A model generated the notes under the pieces. It had not been told where the DNA came from and ran no database searches. It saw only the letters and a program-made list of their open reading frames with translations. The position numbers and the translations under genes were made by a program. Shown here piece after piece: positions 43,236 to 59,499 of a DNA stretch of 64,000 nt. This DNA is from Rhizobium sp. Leaf371 (GTDB taxonomy: Bacteria; Pseudomonadota; Alphaproteobacteria; Rhizobiales; Rhizobiaceae): assembly GCF_001424045.1 (NCBI RefSeq), contig NZ_LMQB01000024.1, forward strand, positions 372,001 to 436,000, written 5' to 3'. Positions within the stretch are counted from its first letter, which is position 1, and every line of letters starts with the position of its first letter.

Positions 43236-44810
43236 ATGTCGACGGAAAAGCCCAAGCAGCAGCTATCGGTGAACTTCGCCATCAACGTCGCAGGCGCGAT
43301 CGCGCCGATCGTGATCGCGCTGGTGACGGTGCCCATTCTCGTGCGCCATATCGGCGATGCCCGTTACGGCGTCATGTCGATCGTCTGGGTTCTGCTCGGT
43401 TATCTCGGCTTTCTCGACCTCGGCCTGTCGCGCGCCTCGACGAATGCCCTGTCGCGCCTTCCCTTTTCCGCCACGCAGGAACGCTCCGAAATCGTCGCGA
43501 CCTCCTTCATCCTCAACATGGCGCTGGCAAGCCTCGGGGCCGTGCTCCTCTACTTCGCCGGCAATTTCCTGCTGCTCACCGTCTTCACCGTACCGCCGGA
43601 GCTCGAGGCCGAAATCGCCACGGCGCTGCCGTTCATCGCCTGTCTTCTGCCGCTCGCTCTGATTTCCGGCTTCTCGATCGGCATCCTCGAATCGCGGGAA
43701 CGCTTCCTTTTGGCCAACGGGCTGCAGATCGGCGGCATGATCGTCGGGCAGGTCGTCCCGGTCCTCTGTGCCATCCTCATCTCGCCCGATCTCTCGGTCA
43801 TCATTCCGGCCGCCGCCCTCTCCCGCGCGGCCTCCGTCGTCGTGGCGACGCTGATCGCGCTCTACACGGAACAGGGCTTCCGCTTCGATAGGTTCCGGTT
43901 TGCGAAAGTCCGGTCCCTGATGAATTATGGCGGCTGGATCACGCTGTCCTCGATCATCCTGCCGGTTCTCAATACGCTCGACCAGATCATCATCGGCAAG
44001 ACGCTCGGCGTCAGCGCCGTCACCTATTATTCGGTGCCGATGAACCTCGTGATGCGCAGCCAGGTCTTTACCAGCTCGCTCGCGCGCACGCTGTTTCCGC
44101 GCCTGTCGAGCCTGCCGCGGGCGGAGGCCATCGCCATTTCCGAGCGTGCGATGATGGTCAGCGGCATCCTCTATGCCGGGCTCTGCGCGGCCGGTATCTT
44201 TCTCATGCGTCCCTTTCTCGACCTCTGGATGGGCCCATCCTTCACGGCGATTGCCGGAACCGTCGCCGTCGTCCTCCTGATGGGCAGCTGGCCGAATGCC
44301 TTGACCTTCGCGCCCTTCACGCTGTTGCAGGGACAGGGTCGTCCCGACATGACGGCGAAGATCCATGTGGCGCAGATGGTGCCCTATGTCCTGCTGCTGG
44401 TGCTCCTGACGCACCAGTTCGGCATTCTCGGCGCCGCCATCGCCTTCCTCTGCCGCGGCTACGCCGATTGCAGCCTGCTCATTCTCTTCTCCCATATGCC
44501 CCGGCGCATTTTCCGCGCACTTTTTCCGTCAGCGGTTCTGGTCGTCGCGGCGGGCGTGCTTCAGTTTGCTCTCGCGGGCTCGACCCCGGCCCTCTTCCTC
44601 GCCGCCTGCGTCAGCATGGTGATCGCGATCGTCCTCCTGCGCCTTCAGGAACGGGAGGTCTTCAACCAGACGCTGGCGGTCGCGATGGGCGCATGGAACC
44701 GACGCCGGTCTGCGGGCTCTGCGGTGCCCGTGACCAGTCCCTCGATCGTCGGGCGCACCTTTCCGCCTGCGGTCGGTGCGCCGCAGACCGTCGAAAACCA
44801 GGGAGCCTGA
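43236..44810 (+). CDS. Polysaccharide repeat-unit flippase (Wzx/MOP family)
   Basis: This inner membrane protein of about 524 residues has 12-14 hydrophobic segments. It belongs to the Wzx/MOP group that moves undecaprenyl-linked oligosaccharides to the periplasm. Family features are VNFAINVAGAIAPIVIALVT with VPILVRHIGDARYGVMSIVW near the start, and YYSVPMNLVMRSQVF in the middle. The ATG at 43236 follows GGGAAGACC. Earlier in-frame starts are weaker. A disordered C-terminal tail follows the last helix. It is the first plus-strand gene of the exopolysaccharide-type locus, with the GT4 gene 2 bases downstream. Confidence 0.88.
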   Translation: MSTEKPKQQLSVNFAINVAGAIAPIVIALVTVPILVRHIGDARYGVMSIVWVLLGYLGFLDLGLSRASTNALSRLPFSATQERSEIVATSFILNMALASLGAVLLYFAGNFLLLTVFTVPPELEAEIATALPFIACLLPLALISGFSIGILESRERFLLANGLQIGGMIVGQVVPVLCAILISPDLSVIIPAAALSRAASVVVATLIALYTEQGFRFDRFRFAKVRSLMNYGGWITLSSIILPVLNTLDQIIIGKTLGVSAVTYYSVPMNLVMRSQVFTSSLARTLFPRLSSLPRAEAIAISERAMMVSGILYAGLCAAGIFLMRPFLDLWMGPSFTAIAGTVAVVLLMGSWPNALTFAPFTLLQGQGRPDMTAKIHVAQMVPYVLLLVLLTHQFGILGAAIAFLCRGYADCSLLILFSHMPRRIFRALFPSAVLVVAAGVLQFALAGSTPALFLAACVSMVIAIVLLRLQEREVFNQTLAVAMGAWNRRRSAGSAVPVTSPSIVGRTFPPAVGAPQTVENQGA

Positions 44811-44812
44811 CG

Positions 44813-46024
44813 GTGGCGACGCGACAGAGCAGCGATATGACGCCGCATGGCGAAAAACCCCTGATCGTTCAGGTCGTGCGCCAGTTCCTCCCCAATCGCG
44901 GCGGCCTCGAAGACGTCGTCGCCAATCTCTGCCATTCGCTGCCGGAGCGCGGCTTCCGCGTGCGCGTCGTCACCTGCGACAGCCTGTTCTCCGAACCCGA
45001 GCGCGGCCGGCTGCCCCACCAGGAGACCATCGACGGCATCGAGATCGTCCGCATTCCCTGGCGTGGCTCCCCCCGATATCCCGTCGCACCCGCCATTTTC
45101 CGGCATTTGCGCGACGCCGATCTCGTCCATGTTCACGCCATCGACTTCTTCTTCGATGCTCTCTCCTGGGGGCGCTTCCTTCACCGTCGCCCGATGGTCG
45201 CAACCACCCATGGCGGCTTCTTTCACACCAAGTCCTTTTCAGCTCTGAAGAAAACCTGGTTCAACACCATTACGCGCGGCTCGGCCCAGGGCTATGCCGA
45301 GATCATCGGCTGCAGCGAGGCGGATATGCGCACCTTCGAGCCGATCGCCGGAAGCCGCGTCCGCCTCATCGAGAACGGCGTGGATATCGCCAAGTTCGAG
45401 GATGCCGCGAGCCGCGTGCCGACGCGCCGGCTCGTCACCATCGGCCGGTTCTCCGCCAATAAACGCCTCCCCTTGCTGATCGAACTGACGGCCGCGCTGA
45501 AGGCCCGCCACCCGGACTGGAGCCTCGACATCATCGGTGTTCCCTCCGACCTCACCGTCGACATGCTGCAGGCCGAGGCGCGCAGGCAGGGCGTCGAGAC
45601 GGCCGTGACCCTCCACAAGGGCCTCACAAATCCCGAAATCCGCACGCGTCTTGCAGAGGCTTCCCTGTTCGTCTCGGCCTCCGACTATGAAGGCTTCGGC
45701 CTTGTGGCCGTCGAGGCCATGAGCGCAGGACTGCTTCCGGTGCTCAACGCCAACGCCGCCTTCACCGATCTCGCGGGTCGGCACACGGAGCTGTCGCTCA
45801 GCGACTTCGCCGACATCTCGGCCACCGCCGACGCTCTGGAAGCGGCCTACGCCCGCCTGGAAACGCGCGGCGACGCGCTTCGGGCCGATCTGATGTCTGC
45901 CGCCAGAGCCTATGGCTGGAATGCCGTGGCCGATCGCTATTGCGACGTCTATCGCTCGGTGCTCGGCCTTGCCGCGGCACCCCGCCCTGCCCTATCGTTC
46001 GACGCGACCGCCCCTGCCCGATAA
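44813..46024 (+). CDS. GT4-family glycosyltransferase
   Basis: Cytoplasmic retaining glycosyltransferase of 403 residues, GT-B fold. The N-terminal half begins VVRQFLPNRGGLEDVVANLC, the acceptor-side glycine-rich loop, and the C-terminal half carries RLVTIGRFSANKRLPLLIEL and the donor-binding EGFGLVAVEAMSAG (E-X7-E, about residues 291-299). The start is a GTG at 44813 with GGGAG upstream, two bases after the flippase stop. It probably adds a sugar to the lipid-linked repeat unit; donor and linkage are unknown. Confidence 0.9.
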   Translation: MATRQSSDMTPHGEKPLIVQVVRQFLPNRGGLEDVVANLCHSLPERGFRVRVVTCDSLFSEPERGRLPHQETIDGIEIVRIPWRGSPRYPVAPAIFRHLRDADLVHVHAIDFFFDALSWGRFLHRRPMVATTHGGFFHTKSFSALKKTWFNTITRGSAQGYAEIIGCSEADMRTFEPIAGSRVRLIENGVDIAKFEDAASRVPTRRLVTIGRFSANKRLPLLIELTAALKARHPDWSLDIIGVPSDLTVDMLQAEARRQGVETAVTLHKGLTNPEIRTRLAEASLFVSASDYEGFGLVAVEAMSAGLLPVLNANAAFTDLAGRHTELSLSDFADISATADALEAAYARLETRGDALRADLMSAARAYGWNAVADRYCDVYRSVLGLAAAPRPALSFDATAPAR

Positions 46025-46035
46025 GGACTGACATC

Positions 46036-47103
46036 ATGCAATCGACACGGTCCTTCGCCGGACGCGCCGCCCGTCTGCTCGCGCTGACAGCCTGCCTCTC
46101 GACCGGGGTCCAGCCGGCGCTTGCCGGCTGCTTCAACGGCGTCAATATCGCAGGCGCCGAATTCGGTACCATCCCCGGCACCTTCGGCAAGGAATACACC
46201 TACCCGTCCAAGGAAACGATCGACTATTTCGCCGGCAAGGGCTTCAACACCGTCCGCCTTCCGTTTCGCTGGGAGCGCATCCAGCGCCGGCTGAACGGTC
46301 CGCTCGACACCGAGGAACTCGCCCGTCTCAAGGAGAGCGTCGAGGCGATGCGCGCGCACGGGCAGACCGTCATTCTCGACCTGCACAACTACGCCCGCTA
46401 CAACGAAAAGATCGTCGGAACGAAAGACGTGCCGCAGGCAGCGCTCGCCGATGTCTGGTCGCGTCTCGCCAAGGTCTTCGCCAATCAGAAAGGCGTGGTC
46501 TTCGGGCTGATGAACGAACCCTTCGACATGCCCCCCACCGCCTGGCTTCCGCCGGCCAATGCCGCCATCGCCGCGATCCGCAAGACGGGCGCGAAGAACC
46601 TCGTGCTGGTTCCCGGCGTCTCCTGGACGGGCGCGCATAGCTGGCAGGCGGACATCGGCGGCTCCTCCAATGCCTCGACGATGATCAAGGTCAGGGATAC
46701 GGCAAACAATATGGCGTTCGAGGTGCACCAGTATCTCGACGGCGACTTCTCCGGCACGAAAGACGATTGCCCGCGCGGTGACGACGCGGTCGCCGCCCTG
46801 CGTTCCATGACCGACTGGTTCCGCGCCAACAAGACGCGTGGCTTTCTGGGCGAATTCGGCGGATCGGCGACATCGGACTGCATGATCGGGCTGGCCCGCA
46901 TGGTCGACGTGATGGCGGAGGCAAAGGACGTCTGGATCGGCTGGACCTACTGGGCAGCCGGCGACTGGTGGTCGCCGGACGAACCGTTGAACGTCCAGCC
47001 GACCGAATCCGGCGACAGGCTGCAGCTGCGAGCCCTGACGACGCGCAAACTGGCCCGCGAGGAGGACTCCTGCCCGGCGCTCGACGCCGTCAAGCCGCGC
47101 TGA
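46036..47103 (+). CDS. Secreted glycoside hydrolase family 5 endoglycanase
   Basis: This enzyme of 355 residues has a Sec signal (to about residue 30, ALTACLSTGVQPALAG). It shows the cellulase-type GH5 barrel with the acid/base glutamate E161 in FGLMNEPFD and the nucleophile E273 in GFLGEFGGSA. RLPFRWERIQ and DLHNYARYN match the family's substrate cleft. It likely cuts beta-1,4-linked glucan in the periplasm or outside, perhaps trimming the polymer made by this locus. AAGGA lies eight bases before the start. The end overlaps the convergent polymerase gene by 14 bases. Confidence 0.92.
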   Translation: MQSTRSFAGRAARLLALTACLSTGVQPALAGCFNGVNIAGAEFGTIPGTFGKEYTYPSKETIDYFAGKGFNTVRLPFRWERIQRRLNGPLDTEELARLKESVEAMRAHGQTVILDLHNYARYNEKIVGTKDVPQAALADVWSRLAKVFANQKGVVFGLMNEPFDMPPTAWLPPANAAIAAIRKTGAKNLVLVPGVSWTGAHSWQADIGGSSNASTMIKVRDTANNMAFEVHQYLDGDFSGTKDDCPRGDDAVAALRSMTDWFRANKTRGFLGEFGGSATSDCMIGLARMVDVMAEAKDVWIGWTYWAAGDWWSPDEPLNVQPTESGDRLQLRALTTRKLAREEDSCPALDAVKPR

Positions 47104-48382
47104 GACCGCGCCCGGCTTGCGAGGCATCTCGCGGCTTGCGCCCGAGCGCGGCCTCGTCGAGAACCGAAATGGTGCCGAACAGGAACCACAGCAGACCCGC
47201 CGTCTTGATGGAATAGCCGCTATCACTGATGATCATCAGCAGCAGCAGGTACACGATGACCATGCCGTGGAAGATGCGAGCCCTGCCGCTCTTCAGCGGC
47301 GCGAAGACGAGCAGTCCCCACAGCCCCATGAAGCCGAACAGGCCGAACTTCGTGAGCGTGTAGGCAAGACCCGAATCCGCCGTGAACTGCGTCGTCGTCT
47401 GGGCGCCGAACACCACGCGCAGATCGAGCGAGGTCAGGAGATGCGCCGTGACCTGAAACCGCCCGCCAATATCGTTCGGCCCGCCCTGCGTTCCCGACTG
47501 AATGCCGTAATAGGCCAGCACCGACAGCATGATGAACGGCAGGACATACCATGCGAGACGCGGCATGAAGCGGTAGACCGGCAGAAGCAGCGTCATGAGG
47601 ATGCAGGTGTAGAGCCCGAACCGCGCATCTCCGAGGGCGATCACCGTCAGGGCGAGAAACAGCGTCACGAACCGCAGGCGCATGGTTGGCCGGAACAGGC
47701 ACCAGCCATAGACGATCGCCCCGAAATTTCCGACCGACACGGGCTCGAGGAACACCGAGGACACCCGGTGCATGCCGAGGAACGGCAGGATGGTGCGCGC
47801 GCTCGGCCGCATGCCGCTGATGAAGAGCCCGGTCGTCTGTCCGTAGAGCTGATCGACCGTCACGCTGCCGCGGGCAAGGTAATAGCCGATGACGTTGAAG
47901 AAGGAGATGTAGACGTCGAGCGCCATATATTCGAACAGACCGACGGCGACCACGATGGCGGCCGAGATGAAGACCAGCCGGTCGGCGAGCCTGAGGTCGT
48001 GCAGCGTCCGGCCGGCGAAATAGAAGCCGATCGGAATGAGGATATCGCGCACGGCCTTGAGGTCGGGCTGGCCGCGCATGGTGAACAGGAAAAGCATGTA
48101 GGAGATGAAGACGGCGAGCAGCATGTAAGGCGCCGTGCGCCGCCCCAGCGCGACGATGAAGACGCAGCCGATAAGCACCATCTCCGACATCATCACATGT
48201 CCGTCCGACACCCGCATCACGCGCGTATTGACGAGACAGAGAAGCGCGTTGAAGACGAGACCGCCAATGACGCTGAAGGCCGCAAGACGCGCAGAGAGGC
48301 CCCGCCAGGCATCGTCGTCCGCTGCCGCCACGCCGCGGACCGGCAAGGCGTATCGGGCCGAGACGTCCTGCAGGACGCTCAT
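47090..48382 (-). CDS. Polysaccharide polymerase (Wzy/GumE-like)
   Basis: Integral membrane protein of 430 residues with about 11 hydrophobic segments and a large loop (about 210-300) carrying scattered arginines, the usual shape of Wzy and O-antigen ligase proteins. The sequence RGQPDLKAVRDILIPIGFYF and the late GLFGFMGLWGLLVFAPL helix resemble GumE-type polymerases. Sequence identity in this group is low, so the call rests on topology and on its neighbour, the GumC-like protein, whose stop it overlaps at a TGATG junction. It should join repeat units in the periplasm. Confidence 0.75.
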   Translation of the reverse strand: MSVLQDVSARYALPVRGVAAADDDAWRGLSARLAAFSVIGGLVFNALLCLVNTRVMRVSDGHVMMSEMVLIGCVFIVALGRRTAPYMLLAVFISYMLFLFTMRGQPDLKAVRDILIPIGFYFAGRTLHDLRLADRLVFISAAIVVAVGLFEYMALDVYISFFNVIGYYLARGSVTVDQLYGQTTGLFISGMRPSARTILPFLGMHRVSSVFLEPVSVGNFGAIVYGWCLFRPTMRLRFVTLFLALTVIALGDARFGLYTCILMTLLLPVYRFMPRLAWYVLPFIMLSVLAYYGIQSGTQGGPNDIGGRFQVTAHLLTSLDLRVVFGAQTTTQFTADSGLAYTLTKFGLFGFMGLWGLLVFAPLKSGRARIFHGMVIVYLLLLMIISDSGYSIKTAGLLWFLFGTISVLDEAALGRKPRDASQAGRGLSAA

Positions 48383-50472
48383 CAGGCCGCAGCCTCGACG
48401 ACGACGGCGCCGACGAGCTTGGTCTTCCACGGCCCGAGCGACTGCGCGAGATCCTTCAGATCGGAGCGACCGACGCGTCCGGGCCGGATGACGATCGCGA
48501 TCGCATCGCTGTCCTTCACGAAGGCCATCAGCCGCGCGGCATTTTCCTCTCCCGTCGCGTCGATGACCGAAAAATCGGCCGGCGCAGGCCGGACGGCCGC
48601 CGACAGGAGAGAACCGGACGCGCGACTGCGCTGGCGCGGCATGGCATGGCGATCGAGGCGGCGATAGCCGACGCTCTCGAATGCCGGCACGCCGCTTGTC
48701 TGCATACGCTGCAACGTGCCGGCCAGCGGCGAGGACGCGGAGACGGACGCGGCAGCCAGATCGACCGCGGCACCCGTCGCGGCGAGCGCGAGCGCGATAT
48801 CGCCGACCAGCGTCTCGTCCGGCTTTTCCAGGCCCGGCGACAGAAACACGATGCGGGCGGGCACGGCGGCAACGGCATCGGTCAAGACATAGGCCGCGCG
48901 CGTAACGCCGGCTTCGCGCTGGCGTTCGGCGGCATGCGATCGGGCAGCCGCCCGATCCGAAATCGGCAAGCGCCCGCGCATCCGCGCGAACAGACCGCGC
49001 CCGCGGCGGGACCGGCTGGCATCCCAGGCGTCGGCGTCGGCGTCTGCCGGCCCGGCTTTCAGCGTCTGACGCGGGGCGATGCGCGCGATGACCGGGACGC
49101 CGAGCATGTCGACGATCTGACGATCGGAGGTCACGCGACCATCGAGCATCTCCAGCCCGACGGCGATGGCCGAACCGGCGGCAGCCCCGAACAGGACGCC
49201 GGCGATGGCCACCAGCAAAGCGGAGGCGCGCGTCGTCTTCGTCGGCGGCAAAGCTTCCGAGATGATGCGCGAATTGCCCGAACCGATGTCGTATTGGCGG
49301 CTCAATTCTTCCGACCGCGTCAGGAAGGAGGTGTAGACGCCGCGGATCGCGTCCGCCTCGCTCTGGAGCTGGGCCAGCGTCGTGCGCGCGTCGCCGCTGT
49401 CGCCATTGGCATTGCGAAGCGCGGCAAAACGCGTTTCGAGCGCCGCGACATTGGCCTTGCTGCGCTCGAACGTATTGCGCACCGAGTCCTGCACCCGCTT
49501 CAGCTCCGACTCCAGTGCCCGGCGCATGCTTTCGGCCTGTGCCTGCGCGGTCAGAAGCTGGGGATGGCGGCTGCCGAGGCTGGTCTGCAGCTCGGCCAGC
49601 CGGTCGAGCGTCTGCGCATAGCGCGTCCGCAACGTCGTGACCGAGGTCTGCTGGAGCGCTTCGGGGATCGCACCCGAGGCGAGATCCCCGGTGGTGAGAG
49701 CCCGCACCTGATTGTAGTTGATCTGCTGCTGTTCCAGCGCCGCGCGCGCGCTGCCGAGCTGCTGCGTGACATCCTCGAGCTGCTGGTCCGTCACCAGACC
49801 CTTTTCGCCGGTGCTGATCAGCCCGTTCTGTGTGCGGAATTTTACGACCTTGTCCTCGGCTTCGAGCAGCCGCTTGCGCAGCGCCTCGGCCTCGACCTGC
49901 AGGCTCATGCTGGCCTTGAGGCTCTTGTCGGACCCGATCTTGTTCGCCTTGTCGAGGTAGATCGCGGACACGGTGTTGGCGATCTCGGCGGCGCGGTCCG
50001 CATTCGGATGCTGTGCCGTGATGGTGAAGACCAGCGACTGGTCGGCCCGCGTGATGATGAGGTTCTGCGCCAGCGCCGCAGCCGCGCCGGCAGCGGCCGC
50101 TTCGTCGGAGCCGGGGCCCGGAGGAGACCGCCCGAGAATTCGCCCGATCAGGCCGGCCTTTGCCTGGAAGAAGGGATCGTTCTTGAGCTCGAGCTTGCGC
50201 GCGGCTTCCGACAAAACGCTGAAGGATTGCATGACATAGATCTGGCTGTCGATCGCCTGCTGCGCCTGCGCGGGTGCGGCCGTGTCGCCGGCGGACTGGC
50301 CGACGGCGGCAAGCCGCTCGGGGTCGAGCAGGATCTGCGTGGAAGCGCGAAACACGGCCGGCTGGCTCAGTACGAAGGCAAAGCCCAGGCCGCCGAAGAT
50401 CAACGCCGTCACGATGACGATGCCGATGCGGCGCATCACGATCGACGGAAGTTGAAAGACATCGATGTCCAT
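48382..50472 (-). CDS. GumC-like chain-length (PCP) protein with degenerate kinase domain
   Basis: Polysaccharide co-polymerase of 696 residues. A first membrane helix (about 17-36) begins the Wzz domain. A long periplasmic coiled-coil region (about 180-400) is rich in Gln, Ala and Glu. The second helix (about 425-450, ALLVAIAGVLFGAAAGSAIA) is preceded by the PCP motif ISEALPPTKTTRAS. The cytoplasmic C-terminus (about 530-690) looks like a tyrosine-autokinase fold, but the Walker A region reads LSPGLEKPDETL without GKS/T, and no tyrosine cluster ends the protein. It is probably a structural length regulator. The ATG at 50472 is first in the minus operon with the polymerase. Confidence 0.85.
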   Translation of the reverse strand: MDIDVFQLPSIVMRRIGIVIVTALIFGGLGFAFVLSQPAVFRASTQILLDPERLAAVGQSAGDTAAPAQAQQAIDSQIYVMQSFSVLSEAARKLELKNDPFFQAKAGLIGRILGRSPPGPGSDEAAAAGAAAALAQNLIITRADQSLVFTITAQHPNADRAAEIANTVSAIYLDKANKIGSDKSLKASMSLQVEAEALRKRLLEAEDKVVKFRTQNGLISTGEKGLVTDQQLEDVTQQLGSARAALEQQQINYNQVRALTTGDLASGAIPEALQQTSVTTLRTRYAQTLDRLAELQTSLGSRHPQLLTAQAQAESMRRALESELKRVQDSVRNTFERSKANVAALETRFAALRNANGDSGDARTTLAQLQSEADAIRGVYTSFLTRSEELSRQYDIGSGNSRIISEALPPTKTTRASALLVAIAGVLFGAAAGSAIAVGLEMLDGRVTSDRQIVDMLGVPVIARIAPRQTLKAGPADADADAWDASRSRRGRGLFARMRGRLPISDRAAARSHAAERQREAGVTRAAYVLTDAVAAVPARIVFLSPGLEKPDETLVGDIALALAATGAAVDLAAASVSASSPLAGTLQRMQTSGVPAFESVGYRRLDRHAMPRQRSRASGSLLSAAVRPAPADFSVIDATGEENAARLMAFVKDSDAIAIVIRPGRVGRSDLKDLAQSLGPWKTKLVGAVVVEAAA

Positions 50473-50796
50473 AGGGCTTCCATTCCACGCCAGGTTGCGG
50501 CGAACACGCTTGGTCGAGACGTGCCGGATCCAAGACGGCCGGTGATCCACCCGCACGAGGGTCTCCGTCCTGAGATTTGACAGCTTATAGTTAACAAGCC
50601 CTGAACGCGGGCGCTGGCATTCAGGCGAAGCACTGCAATTGCAGGGGCTTAAGCGTGCAGGTCCGCAGGTCGCGCCATATGAGACCCTGCTTGAGGAAAC
50701 TTTAGCTATATTCCTTAGCCCGTTTTTAGCCCACAACCAGTAAGTCTGCATCACCACAGCCGAATGCCCCAAGCCGCGCTGAGAAGGAGCGATGCC
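50473..50796. promoter_or_regulatory. Divergent promoter region of the polysaccharide and carrier-protein operons
   Basis: This 324-base gap separates the GumC-like operon from the carrier-protein operon and holds no gene. It is AT-rich toward 50700-50740. It contains a perfect 12-bp palindrome CTGCAATTGCAG at 50633-50644, near the middle, and an inverted CCTGAA/TTCAGG pair just before it. Co-regulation of both operons by one factor is plausible. Confidence 0.5.
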
Positions 50797-51045
50797 ATGA
50801 AGACCCAAATCCGAGAGATGCTTGCCCAATATGCCTCGCTGCCATCGGCAGCCGATCTGGACGACGACGCGGACCTCTACGCGGCCGGCATGTCGTCGCA
50901 TGGCTCCGTCCAGCTGATGCTGGCGCTGGAAGACACGTTCGACATCGAGTTTCCCGACAACCTGCTGAACCGCCGGTCCTTTTCCACCATCACGATCATC
51001 GAGCAGACGGTCACCCAGCTGGTCGCCGGGAAAGAAGCCGCCTGA
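50797..51045 (+). CDS. Acyl/aminoacyl carrier protein
   Basis: A small acidic four-helix carrier protein of 82 residues. The phosphopantetheine site reads LYAAGMSSHGSVQLM, so S34 is the likely attachment serine; the usual preceding Asp is Ser33. The C-terminal part EDTFDIEFPDNLL is typical of ACP helix II-III. The ATG at 50797 follows AAGGAG. It is the first gene of an operon with the flavoprotein, the amino acid ligase and the DUF1839 gene, so its cargo is probably an aminoacyl thioester rather than a fatty acid. The next start overlaps its stop by one base. Confidence 0.92.
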   Translation: MKTQIREMLAQYASLPSAADLDDDADLYAAGMSSHGSVQLMLALEDTFDIEFPDNLLNRRSFSTITIIEQTVTQLVAGKEAA

Positions 51046-52226
51046 TGGACGTCTCCCTCACCGCTCAAGGATCGACGCTGCTGGAGCGCGCGCGCCGCGT
51101 GGCGGGCATCGCCGGCCAGCACGCAGACGACGTTGATCGCAATGCCCGCTTCCCGCGCGAAGCCGTCGATGCTCTGGTTTCGGAACGGCTCCTGTCGATC
51201 CAGATCCCCATCGAACTGGGCGGTGAGGGCGCGACGACCGCGCAGATCGCGGAAGCCTGCACCGTTCTCGGCCAGGCCTGCGCCGCCTCTGCCATGATCT
51301 TCGCCATGCACCACATCAAGCTGTCGAGCCTCGTGTCCCACGGCATCGACAGCCCCTGGCATCAGAGCTTCATGCGCCGCATCGTCGATGAACAGCTTCT
51401 CATCGCCTCGGCGACGACGGAAGGCGGCATCGGCGGCAACATGCGCAATTCGATCTGCGCCATCGAAATTGACGGCGATAGCTGCCGGCTCGAGAAGGAT
51501 GCGGCGGTCATTTCCTACGGCCGCCACGCCGACGCGATCCTCATCACCTCCCGCGCCCATCCGGATGCCGTCACCACCGACCAGGTCATGACGGTCTTCA
51601 CGAAAGACCAGTACACGCTGGAGCGGACCAACGAGTGGGATACGCTCGGCATGCGCGGCACCTGTTCGGAAGGCTACCTTTTCAAAGGTGTCGCTCCGAA
51701 GGAGCAGATCCTGCCGAAGCCCTTCGCCGAGATTGCGGCGCAGTCGATGCTGGCAAGCTCGCACCTGCTCTGGGGCGGCGTCTGGTATGGCATCGCCGTC
51801 AACGCCATGACCCGGGCACAGGCCTTCGTTCGCGCCGCAGCCCGCAAGAGCCCCGGCCAGACACCGCCCGGCGCGCTGCATCTCGCGGAGGCGTCGAGCC
51901 TCCTGCAACAGGTCCGCGCCAACGTCACCGCCGGCCTGGCCCGCTACGAGGCGGCTCTCGTCGAGCCGGAGCTGCTCTCCTCCATGGGCTTCTCCGTCGC
52001 GATGAACAACGTCAAGCTCGCCGTCTCCAAGACCGTGCCCGAGATCATCGACCACGCCATGCAGATCACCGGCATCATGGGCTACAAGAACGGCACCCCG
52101 TTCTCGCTCGGACGCCACCTGCGCGACGCCCAGTCTGCGCAGCTGATGATTTCCAACGACCGCATTCTCGCCAACACGTCGAACATGCTTCTCGTCAACA
52201 AGATCGAAACCAACCTTCTGGGGTAA
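51045..52226 (+). CDS. Acyl-CoA-dehydrogenase-like flavoprotein
   Basis: FAD-type protein of 393 residues with the ACAD fold: an N-terminal helical domain (FPREAVDALVSERLLSIQIP), the middle beta domain (SATTEGGIGGNMRNSICAIE, then WDTLGMRGTCSEGYLFKGV), and C-terminal helices. The segment that normally holds the catalytic base (IYEGT) reads ISNDR at about 369-373, so the usual glutamate is missing. It may oxidise or otherwise process an amino acid held on the carrier protein, by analogy with prolyl-carrier dehydrogenases; this is inference. It is coupled to the carrier protein gene and lies 6 bases before the ligase gene. Confidence 0.88.
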   Translation: MDVSLTAQGSTLLERARRVAGIAGQHADDVDRNARFPREAVDALVSERLLSIQIPIELGGEGATTAQIAEACTVLGQACAASAMIFAMHHIKLSSLVSHGIDSPWHQSFMRRIVDEQLLIASATTEGGIGGNMRNSICAIEIDGDSCRLEKDAAVISYGRHADAILITSRAHPDAVTTDQVMTVFTKDQYTLERTNEWDTLGMRGTCSEGYLFKGVAPKEQILPKPFAEIAAQSMLASSHLLWGGVWYGIAVNAMTRAQAFVRAAARKSPGQTPPGALHLAEASSLLQQVRANVTAGLARYEAALVEPELLSSMGFSVAMNNVKLAVSKTVPEIIDHAMQITGIMGYKNGTPFSLGRHLRDAQSAQLMISNDRILANTSNMLLVNKIETNLLG

Positions 52227-52232
52227 CGGACC

Positions 52233-53141
52233 ATGGATATGCAGCTTTCCTTGCTTGACCGGCTGTTCGCGGCCGGCCTCCTCATCGATACCGGTGTCGA
52301 CGGGCTCTACGGCCGCAGCGGCGTGTTCGAAGACGTCATCACCCGCTTCGAAGCCGTCATCGACGGTCTCGGCGGCGTCGACAAGCCGGAGGCGATCCGC
52401 TTCCCGCCCGGCATGAACCGCGCCCATTTCGAAGGCTCGGGCTACATGAAGAGCTTTCCGCAGCTGGCCGGCACCATCCATTCCTTCTGCGGTTGCGAGC
52501 TCGACCATGTCAGCCTGCTCACCTGCATGGAGGAAGGCAAGGACTGGACCGGACAGCAGCAGGCGACCGATATCGTCCTGACGCCCGCCGCCTGCTATCC
52601 GCTTTACCCGACGATCGCCAAGCGCGGCGCCCTGCCGGCCGGCGGCGGTCTGTTCGACCTGCAGTCCTATTGCTTCCGTCATGAGCCCTCGAAAGAGCCG
52701 ACCCGTATGCAGCTGTTCCGCATGCGCGAATATGTTCGCATGGGCAAGCCCGCGGATGTCGTCGCCTTCCGCCAGGATTGGATGGAGCGCGGCACCAAGC
52801 TGATGGAATCGGTCGGCCTGCCCGTCGAGATCGACGTCGCCAACGATCCCTTCTTCGGTCGCGCCGGGAAAATGTACAAGAACAACCAGCGCAACCAGAA
52901 CCTCAAGTTCGAGCTGCTGATCCCTGTCAACGCCAATGCCGGCCCGACCGCCTGCATGAGCTTCAACTACCATCAGGATCATTTCGGCAAAACCTGGGGC
53001 CTGACGACGGAAGACGGCGAAACGGCGCATACCGCCTGCGTCGGCTTCGGTCTCGAGCGTATCGCGCTCGCGCTGTTCAAGCATCACGGCCTCGACGTCA
53101 ACGAATGGCCGGCGGACGTCCGCAAGACGCTCTGGGGCTGA
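52233..53141 (+). CDS. Amino acid:[carrier protein] ligase (atypical SerRS homologue)
   Basis: This 302-residue protein is the catalytic core of a class II synthetase without a tRNA-binding domain. The family activates a small amino acid with ATP and loads it on a carrier protein's phosphopantetheine. Class II motif 2 is visible as CFRHEP (R149, E151), followed by [13 protein letters not shown], and motif 3 as [12 protein letters not shown]. Zinc ligands C121, E166 and C269 have the spacing I recall for the Bradyrhizobium enzyme. The carrier protein two genes upstream is its probable partner. Whether it takes glycine, alanine or another residue cannot be read from sequence. Confidence 0.92.
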
Positions 53142-53148
53142 TCAGAAA

Positions 53149-54117
53149 ATGCAAGCCGTCTTCCCCGGCCTCGCGCCCGAGACCTATCGCCCGCATGCGC
53201 TCCACGACAGGGAGCGCATGTGGCCGGAGACCAACTGCTATATCGATCTCTGGATCGAGGTCCTGAACACGCTCGGCCTGCCGCCGGAAGCCATGCTCGG
53301 CTTTACGCTGACGCAGGATTTCGAAGGCGACCAGTTCACCTTCTTCAAGGTGCCGCTGGAAGACCTCGAAGCGCTCTACGGCATCACCTGCACGGAACTG
53401 GCCATCTTCGACAAGGTCGAGCGGCATCTGGAAACCCAGATCGCCCGCGGCCGTCTCTGCCTGGTCGAAATGGACAGCTTCTTCATGCCCGACACCGCAG
53501 GTGTCGCCTACGGCCGCGAGCATGGCAAGACGACGATCGGCATCAACCGGCTGGACACGGCCGGCCGCAGCCTCGACTATTTTCACAATGGCGGCTTCTT
53601 CCATCTGGAAGGCGACGATTTCGACGGCCTGTTCCAGACGCTGAGCCCGCCCACTGCAGTGCCGCTTCTGCCCTATACCGAGTTTGCCAAGCTGCCGACC
53701 GTGCTGCCGGACGAGGCGCATATCCGGCAAAAAGCAGAGGCGCTGCTCGCATTCCATTTTGCCCGCCGGCCGCGCGAGAACCCGTTTCGGGCGTTTGCCG
53801 CCGTGTTCCCGGCGCAGGTCGAGGCTCTGGCCGACCGCGACTTCGATTTCTTCCACAAATACGCCTTCAACACGCTTCGCCAGTTCGGTGCGAATTACGA
53901 ACTGCTGGCCACCCATCTCGGCTGGATCGCGACCGACGGTCGCTATGAGACCGAACGTCAGGCTGCGACGAAAATCTCCGAAGTCGGCAAGACCGTGCAG
54001 TTCCAGGTCGCGCGCGCCGTCAACCGCAAGAAGTTCGACGCGCTGGCAGGAACGCTCGCACCCGCGGCAGACGCCTGGGACACGCTGATGCAGGGGCTAG
54101 CGGGCAAGCTCGCCTGA
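53149..54117 (+). CDS. DUF1839 family protein
   Basis: Protein of 322 residues of a family without known function (DUF1839) that I know as a frequent neighbour of amino acid:[carrier protein] ligases. Notable segments are ETNCYIDLWIEVLNTLGL with a conserved cysteine and TCTELAIFDKVERHLETQ. LVEMDSFFMPDTAGVAYGRE and FHNGGFFHLEGDDFDGLF resemble a papain-like or transferase pocket with Cys, His and Asp, but I cannot assign a catalytic set. No signal peptide. It lies 7 bases after the ligase. Acceptor-side transfer of the carrier-bound amino acid is a reasonable guess. Confidence 0.85.
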   Translation: MQAVFPGLAPETYRPHALHDRERMWPETNCYIDLWIEVLNTLGLPPEAMLGFTLTQDFEGDQFTFFKVPLEDLEALYGITCTELAIFDKVERHLETQIARGRLCLVEMDSFFMPDTAGVAYGREHGKTTIGINRLDTAGRSLDYFHNGGFFHLEGDDFDGLFQTLSPPTAVPLLPYTEFAKLPTVLPDEAHIRQKAEALLAFHFARRPRENPFRAFAAVFPAQVEALADRDFDFFHKYAFNTLRQFGANYELLATHLGWIATDGRYETERQAATKISEVGKTVQFQVARAVNRKKFDALAGTLAPAADAWDTLMQGLAGKLA

Positions 54118-54159: not shown

Positions 54160-56625
54160 ATGACACCGCTTCCCGCCCGCCTCCGTCTCGTGAATGAACG
54201 CACCCTGACGCAAGGCTGGCGCCTCGTCCTGACGCCGCCGGACCTGCATGCCGACCCATCGGATTTAGCGGACGACGACGGCATATCCGCCATCGTTCCC
54301 GGCACCGTGGCCGGAGCGCTGGAAGCGGCAGGCCTTTTCGACCGCACGACGCCAGAGCCGCTGAACGGGCAGGATGCCTGGTTCTTCACGATCATCGCCG
54401 ACGAGGCGCCGGGAGACGCCCTTCTGCGCTTCGAGGGGCTCGCAACCGTCGCCGACGTCTTCCTCAACGGCGAGAAGATTCTGTCGTCGCACAGCATGTT
54501 CACGCGCCACGACGTCCCCGTCCGCCTGACCGGCAGCGGCGATCGCCTCGCCATCTGCTGCCGCGCCCTTCTGCCGCATCTGTCGCGCAAGCTGAAGCGC
54601 GCCCGCTGGCGGACCAAGATGATCGTGCCTGCGGGCCTGCGCGGCGTGCGGACCACCGCGCTCGGCTACATGCCCGGCTGGTGCCCGGAGATCCAAGCGG
54701 CCGGGCCCTATCGCCCGGTAACGCTCCTGCGCCCGGAACAGCATTCCGTCCGTGCCGTGGACATGGCCGCGTCGCTCGATGCCGACGGCACGGGCCACCT
54801 CACGGTTCGCTTCGAAACGACGGCAACGCAGTCCATGCGGCTCCGTTGCGGCGGCCATGAGACAGCCGTCACGATCGAGAACGGCCATGCGAAGGCGACG
54901 CTCGATCTGCCCGGTATTGCCCCCTGGTGGCCGCGTAGCCATGGCGAGCCGTTGCTCCATGACGTCGAGCTTCTCTTCGACGGAGATCGCATCGGTCTCG
55001 GCCGCACCGGCTTCCGGCGGGTGGAGATCGACCGCGGTGCCGATGGCACGCGTTTCGCGCTGAAGATCAACGGCATCGGCATCTTCTGCCGCGGCGCCGT
55101 CTGGACCAATGCGGACATCGTTGCACTGCCGGGAGACCGAAAGGCCTATGCGCCCTGGCTGCATCTCGCGGCCGAGGCCAACATGAACATGATCCGCATC
55201 GGCGGAACCATGACCTATGAGACGAAGGCCTTCTTCTCGCTCTGCGACGAACTCGGCCTGATGGTCTGGCAGGACGCGATGCTCGCCAATTTCGACTATC
55301 CGGCCGAGGACGAGGCCTTTACCGCCGCACTCGAAGACGAGGTGGAGACGCTGCTGCGGGCGACGCAGGCCTCGCCGTCGCTCGTCGTCTTCTGCGGCGG
55401 CAGCGAGATGTATCAGCAGGCGGCGATGATGGGCCTTGCAGAGCGTGTCTGGGCCGGCCCGCTGACCGAGGCGATCCTTCCCGGCATCGTCGCGGACCAG
55501 CGCCCCGACATCGCCTATATCCCCAATTCCCCCTTCGGTGGGGCGCAGCCTTTCTCTCCGAACGCAGGCGTCGGGCATTACTACGGCGTCGGCGCCTATG
55601 AGCGACCGCTGGAGGATGCGCGCCGCGCAAATGTGAGCTTTGCGGCGGAGTGCCTCGCCTTTTCCAACGTGCCGGAGCAAGTGACCCTCGCCGCGCATCT
55701 GCCGGTCGCCCCGGTCCACGATCCCCGCTGGAAGGCGCGCGTTCCCCGGGATCGCGATGCGTCCTGGGACTTCGAGGACACGCGCGACCACTATCTCGGC
55801 CGTCTCTACGACCTCGACCCCGCGCGGCTGCGGCGGGAGGACCCCGCACGCTATCTCGACCTGTCCCAAGCGGTGACCGGCGAGGTGGTCGAGGCGACCT
55901 TTTCGGAGTGGCGGCGGGCGGGATCAGACTGCGGCGGCGCGCTCGTCTGGAAGCTCCAGGACCTTCTGGCCGGAGCCGGCTGGGGGCTCATCGATGCGAC
56001 GGGTCTGCCAAAGCCCGTCTGGCACGCCGTCCGCCGCGCCTTCCGCCCTGTCCAGGTTCTTCTCCTCGATGAGGGAACAAACGGTCTCGACATCCACCTC
56101 ATCAACGACACGGCCCACGCTCTCCCCGTGCGACTGGAACTGACCTGCCGGCGCGGCGGACGCCAGACCGTCGTCTCCGGCCGGCATGAAACCGTGCTTG
56201 CGCCGAGATCGAGGTTGCGTCTTGCGGCAACCGACCTGTTCGGCGCGTTTTTCGATACGACTTATGCCTATCGTTTCGCCGGCCCGCAGCATGACGTTAC
56301 CGAGGCACGCCTCGTCTTGGCGGAAACCAACGCATGGATCGCCGATGCCTTCCACTTCCCGCTCGGCCGCCGGGCCGCCCTTCACGATGCGACGCTGACC
56401 GCCGCTCTTGTTGAGAGTTCGGGTGGCTTCGCACTCGACATCGCGACCGACCGTTTCGCTCAGTCGGTCCACATCGATTGTCCCGGCTTTCTGCCGTCCG
56501 ACAACTGGTTCCACCTCGCCCCCGGCGCGGCGCGGCGCATCGACCTGGTCCCGCAGACGAATAGACCGGAGCGCCCCACCGGCGAGATCTCCGCCATCGG
56601 CAGCGCCCTCACCGTTCACGTCTGA
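54160..56625 (+). CDS. Glycoside hydrolase family 2 protein (beta-mannosidase-like)
   Basis: Large protein of 821 residues with the GH2 order: jelly-roll sugar-binding domain (about 1-190), an immunoglobulin-like domain, then the barrel. The barrel holds MNMIRIGGTMTYETKAFFSL and the acid/base region LVVFCGGSEMYQQ with E416, where the family normally has Asn-Glu but this protein has Ser-Glu. A nucleophile candidate is E497 in FAAECLAF. No signal peptide is present, so it is cytoplasmic. It follows the DUF1839 gene by 42 bases and may act on a glycan intermediate. Mannosidase specificity is inferred only from overall similarity. Confidence 0.82.
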   Translation: MTPLPARLRLVNERTLTQGWRLVLTPPDLHADPSDLADDDGISAIVPGTVAGALEAAGLFDRTTPEPLNGQDAWFFTIIADEAPGDALLRFEGLATVADVFLNGEKILSSHSMFTRHDVPVRLTGSGDRLAICCRALLPHLSRKLKRARWRTKMIVPAGLRGVRTTALGYMPGWCPEIQAAGPYRPVTLLRPEQHSVRAVDMAASLDADGTGHLTVRFETTATQSMRLRCGGHETAVTIENGHAKATLDLPGIAPWWPRSHGEPLLHDVELLFDGDRIGLGRTGFRRVEIDRGADGTRFALKINGIGIFCRGAVWTNADIVALPGDRKAYAPWLHLAAEANMNMIRIGGTMTYETKAFFSLCDELGLMVWQDAMLANFDYPAEDEAFTAALEDEVETLLRATQASPSLVVFCGGSEMYQQAAMMGLAERVWAGPLTEAILPGIVADQRPDIAYIPNSPFGGAQPFSPNAGVGHYYGVGAYERPLEDARRANVSFAAECLAFSNVPEQVTLAAHLPVAPVHDPRWKARVPRDRDASWDFEDTRDHYLGRLYDLDPARLRREDPARYLDLSQAVTGEVVEATFSEWRRAGSDCGGALVWKLQDLLAGAGWGLIDATGLPKPVWHAVRRAFRPVQVLLLDEGTNGLDIHLINDTAHALPVRLELTCRRGGRQTVVSGRHETVLAPRSRLRLAATDLFGAFFDTTYAYRFAGPQHDVTEARLVLAETNAWIADAFHFPLGRRAALHDATLTAALVESSGGFALDIATDRFAQSVHIDCPGFLPSDNWFHLAPGAARRIDLVPQTNRPERPTGEISAIGSALTVHV

Positions 56626-56676: not shown

Positions 56677-58482
56677 TCAGGATGCCTTGCGCTTCGGGGA
56701 CGTGATGGCGAGGATCGCATCGCGGATGTGCTCGCGCAACAGAGCGCGCGCGGCAGGCGGCGTCACATTGTGGTCTGCATCCGGCAGCATGAGGCGGGAG
56801 ACGTTCGGATAGCGTGCGAGCAGCTTGCCCTCCCGGCCGAAATGCTGCCTCAGCCGCGCCAGTCCGATATCGCCGACGCTATAGACGAGCAAGATCGGCA
56901 CATGACGTTCGCACAGCTGGCGGAATGCGCGGTGTACGGCCTTGCGAAGCCTTGCGTCGATGGACAGCGATCCCATGACCGGCGCCGCCGTCCGAAAGAC
57001 GCGGCGCACGACGATCTTCACGATATTGCCGGCCGCGCGCGGGACGTCGATCTTGCCGGAGATTAGCCTGTAGGCGGTCTCCACGCGGAAGGCGCGCCGC
57101 TTGTAGTCCGCGAGCGAGCGAGGATTGTAGCGGACCATCTGGTCGACATCGTCGCGGGGGTCCCAGGCAAAGGTCAGGATGTTGATCGCGATCACGCCGC
57201 GGCAGCGTGGATCGGCCAGTGCCGCGTTGAAGGCGAGATAGGCGCCGCTGCATCGGCCGACGACGACGGGATCGGGCAGACCGATGGCCTCGATGCGATC
57301 GAGCGCTGCGCGCGCATCGGCGATCTGGCCCGGCGAATAGAGCACCTGTCGCGCTCCGTCCGGCACCGGAGGGCTATCGGCGACGCCGGCGGCGTCGAAG
57401 CGGAACGACGCGATGCCGGAAGACGCCAGCATCCGCGCGGTCTCCACGGTCGATCGGGCCCAGCCGGACTGCCGGTCGTAGCCGGTGCCGAGCAGCAAGG
57501 CCGTGCCCGTGGGAATGGAATGCGCCGGGGTGCAGAGGATGCCGAACAGCCGGTCTCCGGCACCGAACCGCATGGGACATTCCATGAAGTCTCCGCCGTC
57601 GAGGACGCCGGAAGACGGTCCGCCCTGCCCCTGCCCCTGTCCCTGCCCCAAGGTTGCGGTGGGGAGATCGAGGCCGAGGATCCACGCGGTCAGCGCCTTG
57701 AAGACCGCAACCGGCGTCTCCGCGATGATCGGGTTCGATACGAGGTTGGAATAGCCCTCGAAATCCACGCGGGTGACATCCGCGCCCGCGTCCTGCAACT
57801 GGAGGGACAAGGCAGCGTCGGTGTCGGATTGCGCGCGTTCCGCGATGAAAAAGCGTGTCGATGCGGAAGGCTTGAAGGCTTTGGCATCCGCACGGCGCAC
57901 CGCGGCGGCAACGCTCACCTCCATGACCAGCCCGGCAATGGACGTGCCCGATCCGCCGCTTCCCTGTGGCAGACCCAGCGCTTCGTCGACGACCTTGGAC
58001 CAGAGCGAAAGCTCGCGCAGATAGCGTCGCCCGTTGGTGACGGGCGCGAGAAAAGCGACGCCTGCTGGTGGCAACATGGAGCCCTGCGCCTGCAGCAGCG
58101 CTGAGACCGGCAAGGCACCGAACCCCTGCGTCACCACCACCAGATGGTCGAACCCGACGAGATCGCGCAGGCATCCCGCCGCGGCCATCGCCGTCGTCAC
58201 GAAGGGATCGAGGCCCGAGGGCTCGGAAACATCCAACGCATCGCCCGTGCCGGGATGATCGTAGCGCAGACTGGCAATACCGGCAGCCGAAAGGCTGTCG
58301 GCAAGCTCGCGCCAGGCCTGGTGCACGCACAGTTCTTCCAGTCCCCACGGGCTGACGAACAGCACCGCCGCACGCGTGACCGCACCTTGCGCCGGTGTGA
58401 AAAGGCCGACGGTGTTTTCGAACGTAACGGGCCGGCCTGCAGGGTGCGGTATCCGGATGGTATCCAAGCTGGCGGCAGACAT
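56677..58482 (-). CDS. Tandem alpha/beta hydrolase fold protein
   Basis: The 601-residue protein holds two hydrolase-like halves. The first (about 1-290) has the fold's strand-turn-helix but reads VVVTQGFGAL, with Gly120 where the nucleophile should be. The second (about 320-600) reads VVVGRCSGAYL, giving a cysteine nucleophile candidate C411, and PDADHNVTPPAARALL near the end supplies a histidine. A flexible GQ-rich linker encoded by a hexamer repeat joins them. The start ATG at 58482 is preferred to a GTG 30 bases up. It may be a thioesterase or acyltransferase for carrier-bound or polymer-bound groups. It converges on the GH2 gene and follows the GT2 gene. Confidence 0.8.
   Translation of the reverse strand: MSAASLDTIRIPHPAGRPVTFENTVGLFTPAQGAVTRAAVLFVSPWGLEELCVHQAWRELADSLSAAGIASLRYDHPGTGDALDVSEPSGLDPFVTTAMAAAGCLRDLVGFDHLVVVTQGFGALPVSALLQAQGSMLPPAGVAFLAPVTNGRRYLRELSLWSKVVDEALGLPQGSGGSGTSIAGLVMEVSVAAAVRRADAKAFKPSASTRFFIAERAQSDTDAALSLQLQDAGADVTRVDFEGYSNLVSNPIIAETPVAVFKALTAWILGLDLPTATLGQGQGQGQGGPSSGVLDGGDFMECPMRFGAGDRLFGILCTPAHSIPTGTALLLGTGYDRQSGWARSTVETARMLASSGIASFRFDAAGVADSPPVPDGARQVLYSPGQIADARAALDRIEAIGLPDPVVVGRCSGAYLAFNAALADPRCRGVIAINILTFAWDPRDDVDQMVRYNPRSLADYKRRAFRVETAYRLISGKIDVPRAAGNIVKIVVRRVFRTAAPVMGSLSIDARLRKAVHRAFRQLCERHVPILLVYSVGDIGLARLRQHFGREGKLLARYPNVSRLMLPDADHNVTPPAARALLREHIRDAILAITSPKRKAS
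57623..57646. repeat. Hexanucleotide tandem repeat in the hydrolase linker
   Basis: Four near-perfect copies of CCCTGC (the third ends in T) encode, on the minus strand, the GQGQGQGQ linker between the two hydrolase halves. Copy number changes would keep the frame. Confidence 0.7.
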
Positions 58483-58617: not shown

Positions 58618-59499
58618 CTATCGCTCGGCCTTTCGGGGCGGTGCCGTGCGCCATCCTTGCAGGCGCCCGAGAAAGAGATGCCGCGATCGGCGCGCCATGG
58701 CCCAATCGCGTTTCAACCCGTGGACGACGATCCCTGCGAGCGGGCGTAGCAATTCCGGCAGAACGCGTCTCATCGCATAGCCATGGCGGCGGAGCACATA
58801 ACCGAGCCCGGCGCCATATCGATACATCTTCTGCGCATGGTCGAGCGTGCGCCGATCGCCGTGATCTTCGGGATGATGGGCGTTCAGCGTCGGAAAATAC
58901 CGCCCGGTCGCCCCCGTCTCCAGGCATTTCAGCACCATGTCCTGGATCTCGTGCGCGCCCCAGATCGTGCCCGACCCCGGCCCGAGAGCCATATCGAACC
59001 CGCCTGCGCGCTCGAACACCGGACGTCGCACCACGACGATCCACTCCATCAGCGTGTCCCAGACCGTGTCCCGGGTCAGCGTCACGCTATCCCCGGCGAA
59101 CCGCCCCATGATCGTCCGGCCATCCTCGTCCGTCGGGCGGCCGCTATAGATATCTGCCGGCACCGAAGCGATCAGGGTGTCCAGAGACCGGAAGAAATCG
59201 ATGGGATACCAGCAGTCGTCGTCCGGAAACATCAGCCATGCGCCGCGGGCAGCGGTCGCACCGCGGTTTCTCGCGCGACAGACACCCGTCTCGGTCGAGC
59301 GGATGTGAACGATGTCGATATCGCTGGAGAACCGCGCCAGCAGCGGCGCAAGCCGTTCATCGCCATTCTGATCGACGAACAGCACTTCGAGATCCCGACG
59401 CTGCTGCGCAACGAGGGAGACCAGAAGCCGCTCGATCTCCTCGACGCGCCCGAGGGTGGCGACCACGAGGGAGAAGCGATGCTGCAGCGGTCCTTCCAC
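58618..59499 (-). CDS. GT2-family glycosyltransferase
   Basis: Inverting glycosyltransferase of 293 residues, GT-A fold. FSLVVATLGRVEEIERLLVS opens the nucleotide-sugar domain, VCRARNRGATAARGAWLMFP leads to the metal motif DDD (FPDDDCWY), and GPGSGTIWGAHEIQDMVLKC contains the acceptor-side acidic residues. The start is a GTG at 59499 with GGGGGAGG seven bases upstream. It is followed 135 bases later by the hydrolase gene on the same strand. It probably extends the repeat unit. Donor sugar unknown; dTDP-rhamnose made by the adjacent rfb genes is one candidate. Confidence 0.9.
   Translation of the reverse strand: MEGPLQHRFSLVVATLGRVEEIERLLVSLVAQQRRDLEVLFVDQNGDERLAPLLARFSSDIDIVHIRSTETGVCRARNRGATAARGAWLMFPDDDCWYPIDFFRSLDTLIASVPADIYSGRPTDEDGRTIMGRFAGDSVTLTRDTVWDTLMEWIVVVRRPVFERAGGFDMALGPGSGTIWGAHEIQDMVLKCLETGATGRYFPTLNAHHPEDHGDRRTLDHAQKMYRYGAGLGYVLRRHGYAMRRVLPELLRPLAGIVVHGLKRDWAMARRSRHLFLGRLQGWRTAPPRKAER

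Follow-up and report, generated by a model that had tools for sequence, protein, structure and literature searches.

What does an enzyme that loads amino acids onto a carrier protein do in the middle of an exopolysaccharide locus? The question is raised by a stretch of 64,000 nucleotides from Rhizobium sp. Leaf371 (assembly GCF_001424045.1, contig NZ_LMQB01000024.1, positions 372,001 to 436,000 of the forward strand), hereafter the window, where four closely packed genes encode a small carrier protein, a flavoprotein with the acyl-CoA dehydrogenase (ACAD) fold, an amino acid:[carrier protein] ligase and a protein of the family DUF1839. The reaction of such ligases is known but no end use has been known for them since 2010, and a passage of PMC9437257 (2022) calls their role unknown. 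We propose, with a probability of about 0.58, that the module works as a carrier-protein pathway in its own right and would aminoacylate a sugar destined for exopolysaccharide, a reading in which we infer the reactions and the polymer as well as the amino acid and its acceptor.

The genes were checked by open-frame listing and by Pfam and NCBIfam profile searches, with the curated bit scores as family cut-offs. The carrier (50797..51045, 82 aa) matches PF00550 and reaches 103 bits with NF005480 (cut-off 72); its start at 50797 is preceded by GGAG, the first ATG of the frame being at 50764. The flavoprotein (51045..52226) is over cut-off for PF02771 and PF00441, with the ACAD middle domain below cut-off. 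The ligase, a protein of 302 aa resembling class II aminoacyl-tRNA synthetases (aaRS; 52233..53141), scores 513.5 bits with NF005479 (cut-off 357), and the papain-like DUF1839 protein (53149..54117) 437.9 bits with PF08893 (cut-off 22.5). All are on the plus strand, separated by -1, 6 and 7 bases, then by 42 bases from a GH2 (beta-mannosidase-like) gene (54160..56625, plus strand; PF22666, PF17753). The region 50473..50796, bounded by the divergent starts of a GumC gene and of the module, is the predicted, possible site of the module promoter. A first-pass annotation of this DNA had given the positions, spacing and families of the four genes, and the open frames and profile matches agree with it on each; it had set GH2 outside the module, and this proves wrong, since GH2 belongs to a conserved five-gene core.

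This core emerges from 79 loci (80 DUF1839 copies): 37 from a ligase search, 6 plasmid records chosen from 59 matching DUF1839, and 36 stretches around DUF1839. The set includes near-duplicates and contig ends, and some gene calls, among them those of the second ligase clade discussed below, come from a simple script with approximate start sites. Within 3 kb of DUF1839 the ligase is found in 78 of the 80 neighbourhoods and GH2, the flavoprotein and the carrier in 77 each; the five genes stand together in 75, and in the order and strand of the window in 74, so that the set cannot be put down to chance. The five copies short of it are one at a contig end (L035), a decayed one (L099), one without GH2 (L136) and two second copies (L127 and L130). 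Elsewhere in the stretches obtained, an alpha/beta hydrolase occurs in 53/80, a GH5 gene in 27/80 and GumC in 17/80. The stable unit is therefore of five genes including GH2, often six with the hydrolase, and the GumC arrangement of the window is local. The nearest of the 37 ligase-found loci are those of Rhizobium sp. NFR03, Ferranicluibacter rubi and two other rhizobial genomes (97-98% for the ligase).

The distribution of DUF1839 was surveyed in samples of the order, the class and the phylum and in control genomes from other phyla. Among 297 genomes of the order, 64 have a ligase over cut-off and 49 a DUF1839 gene; all 49 also have the ligase, adjacent to DUF1839 in each (median gap 40 bases, largest 454). 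The class sample (289 genomes) gave 7 and 4 respectively, the DUF1839 set being again nested in the ligase set, and the phylum sample gave DUF1839 in 16 of 398 genomes. On a plasmid of Rhizobium leguminosarum Vaf10 (L099:12799-18170) the module copy looks decayed: carrier and flavoprotein were not found there, the GH2 frame is shortened to 303 aa, transposase genes lie nearby and a nonribosomal peptide synthetase gene follows, which we dropped as a functional context because of this decay.

Is the module tied to polysaccharide genes? We took 40 of 57 DUF1839-positive genomes (no more than two from any genus, 29 genera in all, the genomes being related) and located in them Wzz, two Wzx families and the initiating sugar transferase, counting matches at E≤0.001, of which a few are below curated cut-off. 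The expectation assumes a uniform placement of each genome's markers, only those on DUF1839-bearing contigs being entered; the p-values assume independent genomes and are hence too small, and a number of the DUF1839 copies are close to the end of a contig. Wzz is within 20 kb of DUF1839 in 22 of the 40 genomes (1.05 expected), Wzx in 21 (1.93 expected) and the initiating transferase in 5 (0.91 expected); at least one of them is so placed in 25 genomes and 17 of the 29 genera. Elsewhere the polysaccharide neighbours are proteins clustering with WcaJ-type transferase (L112-L114, L128-L130), ManC and Wzc-type proteins. The link of the module with polysaccharide genes thus holds, though it is not universal, and a set lying mostly away from such genes, which the first-pass annotation had named as the outcome that would speak against it, is not what these genomes display.

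The DUF1839 protein carries most of the argument for a transfer to sugar. Its AF2 model, built from 29 aligned sequences, has a pLDDT of 88.3 and a pTM of 0.88. Searched against the PDB with Foldseek, it gave 19 matches at E≤1e-3, exclusively entries of AziU3, CtaG and CcbD, spanning 317-367 alignment columns, while the next match has an E of 0.03 over 128 columns. The likeness exceeds the papain core, because it extends to the C-terminal helical domain. By their titles, two of the CcbD entries (9dkr and 9dks) contain a carrier domain and one (7yn2) a sugar substrate. Passages of PMC12945683 describe CcbD and LmbD as joining a carrier-bound amino acid to an amino sugar in amide linkage, through a ping-pong mechanism with a Cys-His-Glu triad, and passages of PMC4351081 give their genetics. 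As modelled, DUF1839 is best read as a transferase that would move an aminoacyl group from the carrier to a sugar; its fold and the placement of the module near polysaccharide genes together make the passing of a carrier-bound amino acid to sugar the best reading.

The conservation of DUF1839 agrees with this. Counts here and below come from aligned homologue sets that include the window sequence, the ligase set also including 4 loci without DUF1839. Cys30, at the start of the first core helix (30-41) in the model, is kept in 77/79 sequences, His146 and His125 in 79/79 each, and Thr129 in 76/79. The two sequences without Cys30 are the in-module copies of genomes G521 and G590 (family f204), each of which has a second, Cys-bearing copy adjoining genes whose products group with ManC, Wzc-type and alpha/beta-hydrolase proteins (the DUF1839 copies of these two genomes are at L127:88-1125, L128:13435-14421, L130:6901-7881 and L130:11732-12895). 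That Cys30 is lost only where a second Cys-bearing copy exists fits a catalytic Cys. PMC10318531, in its part on DUF1839, places the family among papain-like proteins with a Cys-(Thr/Ser)-His triad in swapped order and makes a guess at glycan processing, the paper being on cysteine proteinases; among the papers listed it is the only one to name DUF1839. We met no DUF1839-CcbD link in the literature, where no search joining both names was made.

What could be transferred depends on the three other genes. The PDB matches of the carrier are 4h2w_C and Atu2571 (2jq4, 92.7 bits), with a weak match to the DltC models (27 bits, below cut-off); Ser34, likely the phosphopantetheine site judging from the alignment, is present in 74/74 sequences. 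The ligase is a class II core without tRNA-binding domain: its residues 13-300 of 302 align with 4h2w, its PDB matches being the Bll0957 entries 4h2w/3mey, and C121 (81/82), E166 (82/82) and C269 (82/82), which we take to be the zinc ligands, are conserved. The original ligase paper reportedly found a Gly/Ala specificity for the amino acid:[carrier protein] ligases.

The flavoprotein is less straightforward. Its best matches in a single-sequence PDB search (phmmer) are KijD3 and nitrososynthase; in a profile search against PDB sequences an ACAD ranks first, by 2 bits; a structure search returned a mix of TdsC, KijD3 and ACADs, and the RedW model scores 38 bits. The column of the catalytic Glu of ACADs, set with the ACAD motif, holds Ile in 74/76 sequences and Val in 2/76, the alternative Glu site of some ACADs being judged by eye only. 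Classical acyl-CoA dehydrogenase chemistry was rejected on account of this Ile/Val column (76/76); Gly, besides, has no beta carbon. As the usual base is missing, oxygenation is likelier than dehydrogenation, and the flavoprotein is probably a flavin-dependent oxygenase whose substrate is the amino acid on the carrier. The "possibly oxidised" amino acid of the first-pass annotation is kept in this sense, while an oxidation of the acyl-CoA dehydrogenase type appears unlikely.

These elements may be assembled as follows. The ligase would activate an amino acid of small size, by analogy Gly or Ala, and load it on the phosphopantetheine of Ser34 of the carrier, where the flavoprotein would probably oxygenate it, perhaps at its nitrogen. 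DUF1839 would take the group onto Cys30 and, by a CcbD-like ping-pong in the cytoplasm, pass it to a repeat unit bound to a nucleotide or a lipid; the acceptor there would be a sugar, most likely through an amine. The decorated unit would then be flipped and polymerised by a neighbouring or distant Wzx/Wzy/Wzz system. As to the amine, it could be freed on the acceptor sugar by polysaccharide deacetylases, which at least 8 of the 40 genomes have within 20 kb (1.9 expected). Deacetylase genes of PF01522 recur near the module, e.g. at L008:20161-20904, L018:17067-17747 and relatives.

A more daring version has a polysaccharide carrying an N-oxygenated amino acid, for example N-hydroxyglycyl, made by the ligase, a nitrososynthase-like flavoprotein and a CcbD-like transferase, and attached to a lipid-linked unit next to the flippase; we regard it as doubtful. 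If true, such a polysaccharide would take aminoacyl carriers outside the making of peptides and small antibiotics.

The ligase by itself is no guide to the product. Among 12 sampled ligases without DUF1839, 10 form one clade (support 0.83), with 44-48% identity to the window ligase (L138, L139, L143-L150); L137 and L140 fall outside it. The clusters of this second clade often hold another small carrier, AMP-ligases, a short-chain dehydrogenase/reductase and MetY/MetA-like genes: in neighbourhoods of 13-20 kb, the AMP-ligase of the small carrier was found in 6/10 and a MetY-like gene in 5/10 (L138, L139, L146, L148 and L149), a MetA-like gene accompanying it in 4 of these 5. The family matches come from a profile search of L138, the remaining loci having been compared to it by BLAST. 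Since this clade occurs without DUF1839 in other clusters, a polymer cannot be deduced from the ligase alone, and we gave it up as a marker of polymer modification when the clade appeared; the ligase is probably a general loading device and DUF1839 the mark of the sugar branch. The locus outside the clade at L137:5955-10799 has ligase, carrier and tandem hydrolase, whereas DUF1839, flavoprotein and GH2 were not found there; 1.7 kb without called gene separate its hydrolase from its ligase.

Two frequent partners have no step in this scheme. The GH2 protein keeps residues E416 and E497 in 74/74 aligned sequences and has, by eye, no obvious signal peptide. The hydrolase is a tandem, its N half resembling exosortase-A hydrolase 2 and its C half hydrolase 1, with a nucleophile motif GxCxG in the C half (Cys372 in 49/49, the last Gly in 48/49). 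The proteins of L141, L142, L008 and L095 match both TIGR03101 and TIGR03100, that of the window TIGR03100 only, all below the cut-offs (TIGR03100 69.8-110.7 vs 168 bits; TIGR03101 57-109 vs 203 bits). At L101:14288-17599 and at L141:16874-20185 (Rhizobium sp. NLR16a) a single frame of 1103 aa joins an N-terminal Wzx flippase to the tandem hydrolase, which ties this partner of the module to the flipping of lipid-linked sugars, in rhizobial genomes only so far. G519 also has a Wzx match within a similar long frame of 1118 aa.

Several results weigh against an aminoacylated exopolysaccharide. In fifteen of the 40 genomes (12 of the 29 genera) the 20 kb around DUF1839 hold no tested marker, some copies being near contig ends; the co-occurrence with flanking genes that the first-pass annotation proposed to survey stands for Wzz and Wzx, above expectation, and for GH2 (77/80), but neither for these genomes nor for GumC, found in only 17/80. 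Among the matches listed for the 40 genomes, down to weak E-values, there is no full-length DegT aminotransferase within 20 kb, so that no local source of amino sugar is visible; the idea of a DegT-made amino sugar from the same locus was accordingly rejected. The TM-scores of DUF1839 are moderate (0.52-0.60 by query length); a sequence relation to CcbD was not found by phmmer to E 1 nor by profile to E 10; and the proposed order Cys30-Thr129-His146 is unlike that of CtaG and CcbD (the mutated residues of CtaG are, by PDB entry title, C11, H128 and D144). GH2 and the hydrolase are unexplained by the scheme, and they are closer partners than any export gene. This last point would suit a module making a soluble aminoacyl-sugar or another small metabolite, for which the proximity of polysaccharide genes would be a regulatory convenience and not a function: GH2 (77/80) and the ligase (78/80, within 3 kb) are far steadier partners than GumC (17/80 anywhere in the stretch); the sets of Azospirillum lipoferum, Azospirillum brasilense, Mycetohabitans and Rhizobium rhizoryzae are without annotated Wzx/Wzz neighbours in gene tables that are incomplete; the second ligase clade lies in small-molecule-like clusters; and the structural relative CcbD serves a small molecule, as do CtaG and AziU3. 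We nevertheless hold a soluble product to be rather unlikely, export genes being close in 25/40 genomes, far above uniform placement, through a link that recurs with different families (Wzz, Wzx, WcaJ-type transferase) across several genome families; the Wzx-hydrolase fusion also speaks against it.

The nature of the acceptor may be questioned in the same way. With no full-length DegT aminotransferase nearby among the matches listed, and with the DltC match of the carrier, weak as it is (27 bits, below cut-off), one could think of a transfer to a hydroxyl, giving an ester, or to a protein, in the manner of Dlt D-alanylation. But CcbD, the sole structural relative with a named sugar acceptor here, uses an amine, and deacetylases able to free one are within 20 kb in at least 8/40 genomes against 1.9 expected, so that we think such an acceptor unlikely. 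The role of DUF1839 itself may be challenged too, as papain-like families are mostly hydrolases: it could be a thioesterase, amidase or protease, the transfer being left to a different protein, for instance the GxCxG alpha/beta hydrolase, whose Cys nucleophile is kept in 49/49 and which resembles in this the polyhydroxyalkanoate synthases, where a Cys nucleophile serves acyl-group transfer. This hydrolase was however not found in 27 of the 80 stretches, some of them incomplete, while in the order sample each of the 49 genomes with DUF1839 has the ligase; moreover the generic papain-like structural matches of DUF1839 are partial, with E≥0.03. A purely hydrolytic DUF1839 is in our opinion very improbable, and the transfer of a carrier-bound amino acid to the sugar of an exopolysaccharide unit remains the reading we prefer.

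In the window the module lies among polysaccharide genes. Upstream, on the plus strand, are a Wzx-type flippase (43113..44810; PF01943, PF13440), a GT4 glycosyltransferase (44837..46024; PF13439, PF00534) and a GH5 glycanase with, by eye, a signal-like N terminus (46036..47103; PF00150); then, on the minus strand, a membrane protein (47090..48382), which is a candidate Wzy by position and hydrophobicity only, judged by eye, and a GumC/Wzz-type co-polymerase (48382..50472) over cut-off for PF02706 (Wzz) and PF13807 (GNVR). Downstream of GH2, also on the minus strand, follow the alpha/beta hydrolase related to exosortase-A hydrolase 1 (56677..58482; TIGR03100 69.8 bits, cut-off 168) and a GT2 glycosyltransferase (58618..59499; PF00535). 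The flanks given by the first-pass annotation are therefore retained for GumC/Wzz, GH2, hydrolase and glycosyltransferase, but not for the "GumE-like" label of the 47090-48382 protein, which matched no Pfam family; its counterpart in L002 matched neither a Pfam nor an NCBIfam family. As a Wzx/Wzy-type locus, the window has Wzx and Wzz by profile and a polymerase candidate without family match; no initiating sugar transferase was found by profile search within 20 kb of DUF1839 in its genome. A SbmA/BacA-like ABC transporter (minus strand, 59619-61475) lies between the polysaccharide genes and dTDP-sugar genes. In another strain, Rhizobium sp. NLR16a, a plasmid-borne set resembling efp, epmA and lysine-2,3-aminomutase (L141:6558-9384) precedes the module.

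The general hypothesis is not new: it was printed in 2010 in a note in proof of PMC2922099, which predicts that an Agrobacterium system ligates an amino acid to a sugar of the cell surface at an amino group, Atu2574 forming the amide and the redox enzyme being probably a monooxygenase; we found no experimental test of this prediction in the literature. The carrier-bound amino acid decorating the polymer, put forward again by the first-pass annotation, gains from the proximity of export genes (25/40) and from the DUF1839 fold, but the association is not universal and the idea had been published. New here are the evidence of a CcbD-like fold for the conserved open frame, the five-gene core with its counts, the linkage count set against uniform placement, the tandem hydrolase with its Wzx fusion and the split of the ligases in two clades. 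DUF1839 ties these ligases to an amino acid-sugar transferase fold within a defined gene set that has polysaccharide neighbours, which gives a testable mechanism, and the ligase-DUF1839 link may point to a new polymer modification.

How far does the module resemble known systems? With the Bll0957-type ligases it shares the ligase family and the aligned core, while its carrier reaches no more than 24 bits with that of 4h2s, presumably of Bradyrhizobium origin. Both halves of the tandem hydrolase match exosortase-A hydrolases 1/2 (TIGR03100/TIGR03101) in the four relatives tested, but all scores are under the curated cut-offs and no exosortase locus was seen here. The flavoprotein has the fold of the KijD3/DnmZ nitrososynthases and of the RedW prolyl-carrier dehydrogenases, KijD3 being the top single-sequence PDB match, although its scores with the matched NCBIfam models fall well short of their equivalog cut-offs. 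CcbD/LmbD differ from DUF1839 in that no sequence match connects them, the triad order appears different and their lincosamide product is an antibiotic; the lincosamide system moreover employs a separate adenylation protein (passages of PMC4351081) where the module has an aaRS-like ligase. On the other hand the two-domain fold of CcbD is shared over its full length, with a Cys at the start of a helix, and CcbD takes a carrier-bound amino acid as donor and a sugar amine as acceptor. Close kin also is Atu2571-Atu2574, in another strain and at another polysaccharide locus, which according to the passages on it in PMC2922099 combines a carrier, a redox enzyme, a SerRS-like ligase, a conserved uncharacterised protein, a glycosidase and surface-polysaccharide genes. 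Going by its description, Atu2574 would be the DUF1839 protein of that system, and the window carrier matches its carrier Atu2571 (2jq4) at 92.7 bits.

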